64,000 bases of DNA from Microscillaceae bacterium (GTDB lineage: Bacteria > Bacteroidota > Bacteroidia > Cytophagales > Microscillaceae): positions 1 through 64,000 of the forward strand of contig JANWZA010000017.1 in assembly GCA_025054775.1 (NCBI GenBank), given 5' to 3'. Below the pieces are notes generated by a model. That model saw nothing but the letters and a program-made list of their open reading frames with translations. It was not told the origin of the DNA and made no database searches. Every line of letters begins with the position of its first letter. The first letter of the stretch is position 1. The position numbers were made by a program, and so were the translations under genes. This document shows, in pieces, positions 45,094 to 56,048 of the stretch.

Positions 45094-46240
45094 ATGAAAA
45101 CTTCCATAGATAGTTTAATGTAAAAAGAATTCGGGAGAAACTACCTAAACTTTTTCAAATGGCAGAGTTAGAAAAAAGGGTAGAGCAAAGTAGTATATCA
45201 AACTACCTAAGGCAGGAACCAACCCCAGAGGCGTAGAAATGACAGGAGAAACCTTAAAAACTTTGATAGAACACAGCAAAATTCTAAAAATATTCATAAA
45301 TTGGCAAAAAGAAGGTATTAATTTGGATGCCTTTGAACTTTGGAAAAAGGCTAATTATGGTAAAAACCAAACAAAAAAAGGTACTGCAACAAGTAGCTTT
45401 GGCACAAATGGTAGGATTAATCACAATTCAGACAAATCTTATAATTCTAAACTCTATTCAGAAATAGAGAGAGTAGAGAATTTGTCAAACGTAGAAAATC
45501 CTTTGCCAAAGCAATTTCAGAATACGTTTATCTTGGGAAATGCTGAAAATATGCATCAACTACCAGATAATTATATTCACCTAATGATTACTTCACCACC
45601 TTACAATATTACCAAAGAGTATGATAAAGATTTAGCTTTATCTGAATATCTACAAATGCTTGAAAATGTTTTTCGAGAAACTTACAGGGTTGTTGGTAAA
45701 TGGTGGACGAGCTTGTATGAATGTGGCTAATTTAGATAGAAAACCCTACATTCCTTTGTCTGATTACATCTCCCAAATCATGATAAAAATAGGCTTTAAC
45801 ATGCGTAGCGAGATTTTTTGGCAAAAAGGAGCTGGAGCGGGCGTTCAATGGCTTGGGGTAGTTGGATGTCCGCCTCTAATCCTGTATTTAAAGACACCCA
45901 CAAATATATTTTGGTGTTTTCAAAAGGAGATTACAAGAGAAGTAGTAGAAATAAAAAAAGTACCATTAGCAAAGAACAATTTATGGAATGGACAAAATCG
46001 GTATGGACTATAAACCCTGAAAGTGCAAAAAAAAATAGGACACCCTGACCCTTTTCCTGAAGAGTTAACTTATAGATTGATACAACTCTTATCTTTTGAA
46101 AATTTAGACTCTTTTATGGGAAGTGGAACCAGTGTGGTTAAGCTCTGAAAAGTAACCGCAGGTTTATAGGATATGGTGTAGAATCTCAATACATAACTTG
46201 GCTGAAAATAGAACAATCCAATAAAATTGTCATTCATTGA
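45094..46240 (+). pseudogene. Decayed type II DNA methyltransferase (N4/N6-amino group)
   Basis: The reading frame changes repeatedly, yet translated pieces join into one methyltransferase. From 45239: an N-terminal region, then motif IV as TSPPYN (about 45594-45611). There is a shift near 45690 into LVNGGRACMNVANLDRKPYIPLSDYI. A second shift near 45840 leads to AWGSWMSASNPVFKDTHKYILVFSKG. A third at the A9 run (46026-46034) leads to IGHPDPFPEELTYRL and motif I as FMGSGTS. A fourth near 46144 leads to ALKSNRRFIGYGVES and the stop at 46238. Upstream pieces from 45094 (MKTSIDS, then RIREKLPKLFQMAELEKRVEQS) suggest two further breaks and an ancestor of about 380 aa. The motif IV-before-I order marks the beta class. 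No restriction gene partner is recognisable. Confidence 0.85.
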
Positions 46241-54204: not shown

Positions 54205-55611
54205 TTACTCGTCGTTTTCAAGGTTATGGATTTCTTTTTGGGTAGGTTCTGTAAATTCTTCTGAATTTTCTAAATCTAAGTTAAGTTCAAGGTCATTTTC
54301 TTTGTCTTCTGATGGCTCGCTGGTTAAGTTGTCAGTAAGGTTGTTCTCTTCCTGAGAAGAATAATTAGATTCATTTTCAAAAGGTAAGGGTGGGCTTTCC
54401 ACTAAGTCGTCTGTGGTAATTTCTGCAGAAGGGGAGGGCTTTTGTAGTGTTGTACAACTTTCAGTAATTGGTTGTGAGGCTAATTGTGTTGGTTTTCTTA
54501 AAGTAAGGATAGGTTTGTTTTGAAGCCAAATACGTCCTGTACCTGCCAAGATGACAGTATAGGCAAACTCGGTTTGGAAAGGATTAGCCCAAGCTTGTAG
54601 TTTATCCATGTCTATTTCTATACCATTGTCAAAAGCGAGAATATGAGCTAAATTTACACGAATAGCATCATTGTCCAACTCCTCTTCTAAAATCTCATCA
54701 GCACTTTGCAAGAAGACGAGTTTCTCGCCTTTAAGTTTAAGCAAGGTAAAAGGGGCTTGTGTTTGCTCTGATACAAGAGCCTCATATTGTAAAAAAGGGC
54801 TAATTTGAACTCCTTGCATAGCACAAAGAAAATTTTGGGCTTGTACTATAATTTCTTGATTATCAAAACTTACTAAATCTAAGGCAATTACTTCTCCGCC
54901 CTGTGGGTTTGTAAGTTTTATGAGAGCTTCATTTTCTTGGGAGGTATTTATGCAATGCGCCCAAAGGAAGGGATAAGAGGGCTGTTTTTCACTTGGTTGT
55001 TCAGTAGTTTCGTTGTTATCCTCGTTTGGGGTTGAGTCCTCATCGATTATGGAATCATTAGGAGGGGGAGATTGGGGGGCTTCCAAGTCATAGTCTTGGG
55101 ACGTTTCTTCTTCAGGGGTTTCTGCTGGTTCTTGGTGATTTTGTTGCTTATTAAATGTTGTAGCTTTGGCAAAACTTTTTTTTATAGCTCCCCAAAGCTT
55201 TTCCATTAAGCTTTTATTTTCAACATCTTGGCTGGTTTTTTCATTCTCCTCCTTGCTAGTAGAAGGCATTTCAGATAGGTAATGATTTTCTGTTTCTTGC
55301 TCAAAGTCAGTAGGTTGTTCAGGTGAGGGTTCTAAAAAATTACTTTCTATCTCCTCTAAATCTGAGGTAATTTCACTTTCAAGTTCTGTTGCATTTTTCT
55401 CTGCTTCGCTAAAATCAGGAGGTTCGTATCCGTCATTAGGGCGTATTTCAACGTGAATTTCGGTTTGATGCCATAAAATATAACTTGGATTAGCAATCAC
55501 AATCGAATTAGGTAGAAGGCTAATTTCCAAAATATTATCATTTTTACCACTTGTTTCGTGTTTTATATTACCGAAAAGCATAACTTGAAAGAAATTAATT
55601 TGTAAAAACAT
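54205..55611 (-). CDS. AIM24-domain protein with an acidic insertion and tail (468 aa)
   Basis: The middle third resembles the AIM24 (DUF124) beta-sandwich: GGEVIALDLVSFDNQEIIVQAQNFLCAMQGVQ, then LLKLKGEKLVFLQSADEI, IRVNLAHILAFDNGIEIDM and LAGTGRIWLQNKP (about residues 215-370). The first strand of the fold seems to be at the N-terminus (ISLLPNSIVIANPSYILWHQTEI, about 30-55). About 150 Glu/Pro/Ser/Asn-rich residues separate it from the rest, and another acidic tail of about 95 residues follows. Overall charge is strongly negative. There is no signal peptide. The ATG at 55611 is chosen over a TTG at 55638. The function of AIM24 in bacteria is unknown. Confidence 0.65.
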   Translation of the reverse strand: MFLQINFFQVMLFGNIKHETSGKNDNILEISLLPNSIVIANPSYILWHQTEIHVEIRPNDGYEPPDFSEAEKNATELESEITSDLEEIESNFLEPSPEQPTDFEQETENHYLSEMPSTSKEENEKTSQDVENKSLMEKLWGAIKKSFAKATTFNKQQNHQEPAETPEEETSQDYDLEAPQSPPPNDSIIDEDSTPNEDNNETTEQPSEKQPSYPFLWAHCINTSQENEALIKLTNPQGGEVIALDLVSFDNQEIIVQAQNFLCAMQGVQISPFLQYEALVSEQTQAPFTLLKLKGEKLVFLQSADEILEEELDNDAIRVNLAHILAFDNGIEIDMDKLQAWANPFQTEFAYTVILAGTGRIWLQNKPILTLRKPTQLASQPITESCTTLQKPSPSAEITTDDLVESPPLPFENESNYSSQEENNLTDNLTSEPSEDKENDLELNLDLENSEEFTEPTQKEIHNLENDE

Positions 55612-56048
55612 CAAAAAGATTTGTCTTGAAAAACGCAATCATAAAGATACTAAAATTGAGGTAAGATTATAAAGATTGATAAAGTTCAATTAGAATAAAA
55701 ATAGCAACTTTGACTTAGAATGAAAACAATAAGCATATGAAGTATAATGACTTCTCAAAATAATAGCTCTTTAATACTCAAAAGCGATGTTTCGGTTTTT
55801 ATACAGCGTTATAAAATTCTGTAAATCAGCTAACTAATTTTGAAAAATCAAGCATGAACAAAATATTTCTGATTGATTTGTATTTGTTAAATTTACTATT
55901 TTTGTGATACATAGGCTTAGAAATTTGTATAGATTTTTGTTTTGCTTAATAAATTTCGTTTAATAATATACTTTTTCTCTTAGTATACTTTTTTTTTTTA
56001 ACTCTTTTCTAACAAATAAAAATCCAAATTTACGTTAGTTCTTGTGTT
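55612..56048. other. Intergenic region with an MFS promoter
   Basis: A spacer of about 435 bases between divergent genes. TTG (55873-55875), a 21-base spacer and TATTTTTG (55897-55904) make a reasonable promoter for the MFS gene with a leader of about 140 bases. The rest is very AT-rich and featureless. Confidence 0.5.

Follow-up and report, generated by a model that had tools for sequence, protein, structure and literature searches.

The locus described here lies in a stretch of 64,000 nucleotides from the genome of a Microscillaceae bacterium (hereafter the window) and carries a gene for an AIM24 protein of a long form, the parts of which are listed in Table 1. The first-pass annotation of this DNA had placed the gene at 54205–55611. 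The stop end of this span stands, with the gene read from the minus strand, but 55611 is an ATG upstream of the Met codon at 55581, and it is the latter that matches the starts of the relatives; a TTG at 55638 is a further alternative start. The assignment to AIM24 was confirmed by a match of PF01987 to residues 215–354 (E 6.5e-19; 68.9 bits against the curated Pfam cut-off of 25.7), and the same family is matched by all 18 members of alignment A2 (12 long and 6 canonical forms). The match covers positions 65–203 of the 205 of the profile, its late beginning at position 65 being due to the separation of the N-terminal strands from the core. TIGR00266, the hypothetical equivalog of canonical AIM24, gives the window protein 42 bits, which is below the NCBI cut-off of 96.6, and the protein should therefore not be named after it. 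The window gene is the only one in its genome with an AIM24 match above the cut-off. Two other Pfam families, Importin_rep_6 and Trypan_PARP, were hit by one member each and were discounted as low-complexity families.

Table 1. Parts of the long-form AIM24 gene in the window, with the evidence used to delimit them
Feature	Position	Strand	Residues	Properties and basis
Long-form AIM24 gene	54205–55581	minus	458 aa	stop codon 54205–54207; start at the Met that matches relatives' starts
N-terminal strands of the AIM24 fold	55420–55581	minus	1–54	strands drawn at 8–47; AF2 model, 1YOX superposition
Acidic arm 1	55216–55419	minus	55–122 (68 aa)	net −19; alignment and AF2
Conserved basic helix segment	55162–55215	minus	123–140 (18 aa)	KSLMEKLWGAIKKSFAKA; net +4; alignment to canonical AIM24
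Acidic Pro/Asn-rich arm 2	54973–55161	minus	141–203 (63 aa)	net −15; alignment and AF2
AIM24 core, without the canonical GGEG loops	54514–54972	minus	204–356	PF01987 match, AF2, superposition
Acidic C-terminal tail	54208–54513	minus	357–458 (102–103 aa)	net −19; low pLDDT; contains DLELNLDL

According to the AF2 models, the AIM24 domain is split with its whole fold retained, the N-terminal strands included, because these strands and the core jointly superpose on the solved structure 1YOX. In the model of the window protein, built from the 18-row alignment, the block of residues 21–50 has a pLDDT of 91–93, with lower values (48 and 70) for residues 1–20, and the core strands span residues 207 to 354. 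This model superposes on chain E of 1YOX with Z 23.9 and rmsd 3.3 over 200 of 203 residues (model residues 3–368), and the model of a relative, L005, with Z 24.4 and rmsd 2.0 over 197 of 203 residues, in both cases across the N-terminal strands and the core; other structural matches of the two models had Z under 5 and were discounted. Chain E has 203 observed residues, and the aligned range runs from 3 to 237, so that at least about 32 residues inside this range are unobserved in the solved structure. The initial suggestion of a beta-sandwich divided so that its first strands lie at the N-terminus is thus borne out by the predicted structures, in which those strands pack on the core in a confident model. 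The disorder attributed to the insert agrees with the pLDDT of about 39–60 in most arm and tail blocks, but does not extend to residues 58–79, at the beginning of arm 1, which form a helix with a pLDDT of about 68–75 in the window model; this helix is absent from the AF2 model of L005.

What had been taken for about 150 acidic residues inserted into the domain is indeed a long insertion, but, as aligned, it is two inserts, of 68 and 63 residues (net −19 and −15), flanking the basic (+4) helix segment that canonical AIM24 proteins also have. When six canonical AIM24s from the order are aligned with the window protein, the insertion points fall after the GDGS turn closing the fifth strand and directly before the THFTN strand. 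At the equivalent position a canonical protein has the helix segment QGFFGKLLSAGKRMLTGE (L014), and PA3696 has, between the same two strands, SLLGKLWSAGKRK (given also as SLLGKLWSAGKRKLGGE). The six canonical proteins, measured with the same boundaries, have 1 residue at the first site and 0 at the second, which supports the earlier remark that an insert of this size is unusual, and the two sites are identical in all 12 aligned long forms. An uninterrupted domain with a short helix connection, usual in AIM24 although no condition of Pfam, is therefore not what the window protein has. The core has kept nearly the same length, 146–152 residues in long forms against 152 in canonical ones, but the GGEG loop motif occurs in none of the 13 long forms and in all 17 canonical ones (once in 2, twice in 15).

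The arms do not look like copies of one another. At the 0.05 level, 10 of 12 proteins gave no similarity of arm 1 to arm 2 beyond that of composition; the remaining two, which did, belong to one genus. An origin of the arms by repeat or copying was rejected on this ground and because the window gene has weak repeats only, that between arm 2 and arm 1 being 16 nt at 88%. In composition, arm 1 exceeds arm 2 in acidity in 10 of 12 proteins, and arm 2 exceeds arm 1 in proline in 10 of 12.

Compared across relatives, the insert is not a one-off: the long form is present in 13 of 15 Microscillaceae genomes from 10 genera (G000–G009, G011, G012 and G014). One of these, G009, has both forms; G010 has canonical AIM24 only, and G013, which is 79% complete, has neither. 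The long-form profile matches 164 of 291 genomes of the order, 14 in the family and 150 of 276 outside it, and among the matches listed for these 276 other genomes none spans the insert. In a sample of the phylum the profile matches 87 of 395 genomes, the window's own included (86 of 394 others at 1e-10), again with no insert-spanning match among those listed for the 394 others. Eleven genes outside the family with long open frames were rejected as candidates, all 11 being canonical with an upstream frame that is open but unrelated. A search of named-organism sequences with the single window protein as query gave no match; with an alignment, six loci were found, five long matches and one short (L057), which probably correspond to family genomes already counted. 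Among the genomes searched and the matches listed for them, the long form is confined to one Bacteroidota family.

In a tree of 235 core columns, calculated without arms or helix, a single branch with support of 100/99 divides the 13 long forms from 14 canonical ones (L017, L021 and L027 were left out), and this division is present in 100% of 200 bootstrap trees. A single origin of the long form appears likely from these sequences, and is graded no higher because of the long terminal branches (L031 3.17, window 3.08, L074 1.54, L028 1.34 and L012 0.75, with a tree median of 0.17) and the position of the root, the tree being unrooted; the order within the long group is unsure. Alignment A1 comprised the window protein and 10 relatives. 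L031 was added to the long forms of A2 for counts over 13 rows, and as its frame ends at the end of the core, with no tail, the tests on tails have n = 12; L029 was left out of the sequence sets.

The lengths of arm 1 and arm 2 in the 12 aligned long forms are 68/63, 60/62, 50/45, 47/51, 58/55, 45/54, 78/63, 83/65, 38/38, 29/28, 38/44 and 27/24, a range of 24–83 aa; L031, measured after the other 12 and completing a sample of 13 sequences from 10 genera, has 71/80. The two lengths are correlated with r 0.94 over 9 genera, and with r 0.93 over 10 genera when L031 is included. Phylogenetic contrasts give 0.81 (12 contrasts), and none of 5000 permutations of the tips, which ignore relatedness, reached the observed coupling. 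The tail is coupled less, with contrasts of 0.31 to arm 1 and 0.53 to arm 2 (12 rows).

The charge of the protein stands out in the window, where its most negative 60-residue stretch (−19) is the most negative among the 45 ORFs of at least 100 aa, the next being −13, and it carries −65 in total, where seven other ORFs compared carry 0 to −25. The second acidic stretch had been called a tail in the first-pass annotation, and this description holds (Table 1). In 12 of 13 long forms each arm has a net acidic charge; in L031 (from G008), at similar length, the arms carry +2 and −6, and we therefore regard the charge as common and not as essential or invariant. The core is also shifted, from +2 to +5 in six canonical proteins to −1 to −15 in 12 long forms, and the helix remains basic, with a net charge of +2 to +4 in all 12 long forms. 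The features that do not vary are the mid helix and the near-equal arms, not the charge. An acidic–hydrophobic motif, [DE]L[DE][LIM], is found near the C-terminus of 6 of 13 long forms (window 54208–54330) and is possibly a short binding motif.

In three same-genus pairs the dN/dS values of the helix were 0.06, 0.02 and 0.00 (rough estimates, as the helix has 18 codons and dS is saturated in one pair), and those of the core 0.09, 0.06 and 0.03. The arms, at 0.08–0.35 (both below 1 in all three pairs), and the tail, at 0.17–0.50, are looser than the helix and the core. Compared across 9 genera, the helix has a mean identity of 0.34, lower than that of the core (0.38) or the N-terminal strands (0.40); the arms have 0.22–0.26. 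The hydrophobic moment of the window helix is 0.55 (shuffle p 0.006). Among the 10 long-form helices tested, the moment exceeds the shuffled values in 6 (p<0.05); significance was not reached in the other four (L011, L012, L028 and L074) or in the five canonical helices (5/5, p 0.05–0.09). The helix contains Trp in 11 of 13 long forms, the same place being taken by Phe in L028 and by Val in L074.

The canonical bacterial AIM24 proteins (PF01987/DUF124; solved as 1YOX, PA3696, and 1PG6, SpyM3_0169) share with the long form the fold and the helix segment between the same strands. They differ from it in having no arms, in retaining the GGEG loops and in a near-neutral C-terminus of 21–34 aa (six sequences). 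A paper of 2019 states of all bacterial AIM24 proteins that their physiological function is entirely unknown (PMC6677890). Among fungal relatives, IDC4 and EOP-1 are described as AIM24 proteins with a long low-complexity or disordered region; scaffolding was suggested for IDC4 (PMC6162560), and EOP-1 was seen to interact with itself (PMC13075794). Both have this additional region, rich in Pro/Gln, at the N-terminus, in contrast to the two acidic arms inside the domain found here. An AIM24 protein with a low-complexity or disordered N-terminal region is already known; of internal double arms, no published description was found among the matches listed, in which the subscription literature is sparsely covered.

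The placing of the AIM24 helix on long arms in this lineage marks it out as a candidate working part of the protein, which is a testable proposition. A constant helix, arms that are free in sequence and lengths that are matched fit a tethered contact helix, and our preferred reading, held tentatively at a probability of about 0.4, is that an AIM24 platform presents this helix to a membrane or to a partner. Against it stand the lower identity of the helix than of the core and the N-terminal strands across genera, the moments that fall short of significance, the helix drawn at the beginning of arm 1 in the window model and the small sample of 13 sequences from 10 genera. The beta-sandwich core would serve as the platform and is probably trimeric, by analogy with plant PAWH1/2, for which a homotrimer with a flat face has been modelled as a possibility (PMC6677890); the same paper gives these proteins a predicted C-terminal transmembrane segment and membership of an ER degradation complex, in which they are unlike the long form. 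The helix, basic and often amphipathic, would touch a target remote from the core, the likeliest being the cytoplasmic membrane, on its inner face, or a partner protein. The arms, acidic for the most part, would hold the helix extended and off the acidic core, and would set its reach. A membrane target could be in keeping with yeast mitochondrial Aim24, which resists alkaline extraction with no predicted transmembrane segment and is held to be tightly membrane-associated; the accessible part of its description does not mention internal acidic arms (PMC3975624). A partner protein as the target could be in keeping with the scaffolding suggested for fungal relatives (PMC6162560).

The reach of a loop is that of its shorter arm, and selection on reach would therefore hold the arms equal. 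It is conceivable, if doubtful, that the protein is a length-matched double tether, an oligomeric platform holding out on two flexible arms a helix that binds a membrane or a partner, in which the symmetry of the arms is itself selected, with the sequence and even the charge free to drift; this would be an architecture with arm-length symmetry as the selected trait. A lineage-wide lengthening of disorder, however, could couple the arms without any selection on reach, and the contrasts of 0.53 between arm 2 and the tail bear on this point. Alternatively, the arms might be near-neutral expansions, devoid of a specific role, in a fast-evolving form. The long end branches of several long forms (3.17 in L031, 3.08 in the window protein), the higher dN/dS of the arms and tail and the spread of arm lengths from 24 to 83 aa would all suit such an origin, but against it stand the occurrence of the arms in 13 of the 15 genomes (10 genera), their acidity in 12 of 13, their coupled lengths and, for each arm in each of the three pairs, a dN/dS below 1, and we consider this explanation unlikely. 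The long forms offer a natural series, from 24 to 83 residues per arm, in which one may ask whether the length of a flexible linker is under selection.

If the helix were packed on the core as a part of the fold, strong constraint on it would be expected as well. Such docking may be compatible with the AF2 models, since the helix (residues 125–141 in the window model) has a block pLDDT of about 54–60 in a prediction from an 18-row alignment without an aligned-error map. The arms and tail would then form an acidic brush that acts in solubility, in repelling neighbours or in scaffolding basic partners, and both the acidity of the arms in 12 of 13 long forms and the displacement of the core charge to negative values could be understood in this way. 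A docked helix, however, gives no reason for the arms to be equal, and a brush is at odds with the arms of L031, at +2 and −6, so that this alternative seems rather unlikely to us. The roles proposed at the outset from charge (scaffold, cation binding, surface charge) are likewise weakly favoured by the 12 proteins with acidic arms and opposed by the thirteenth. Binding or buffering of cations, for instance calcium, by the acidic arms and tail would exploit their high Asp/Glu content, which reaches a net charge of −40 in the most acidic single arm; but this content varies widely, the arms of L031 show no strong acidity and the protein has no known cation-binding domain, AIM24 being the sole Pfam family matched at E values up to 10. 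We regard this role as very improbable.

The surroundings of the gene vary. Across 15 stretches (around 13 long and 2 canonical genes; ORFs of at least 90 aa; some limited by contig ends) no conserved gene order was found except in two genomes of genus g4. The window and G011 have in common a short-chain dehydrogenase and a TPR protein, both from large families and in a different order; an ORF of about 138 aa is common to G005 and G008, and an ABC ATPase to G007 and G011. Related neighbours that we take to be FtsY-like lie near the long AIM24 gene of G001 (L083, 1509–2462) and near the canonical one of G010 (L086, 10619–11674), which may point to a common ancestral locus or be due to chance. 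The long AIM24 gene of G009 (L074, 7330–8352) is preceded by a reading frame of 405 aa (L074, 5918–7135) that is acidic at its start. Elsewhere in the window, at 45239–46013 on the plus strand, the start of an N6/N4 DNA methyltransferase (PF01555, E 2.4e-6) lies in an ORF that ends at 45730; the next ORF (45660–46013) overlaps it in a different frame, an arrangement that looks like a decayed methyltransferase gene.
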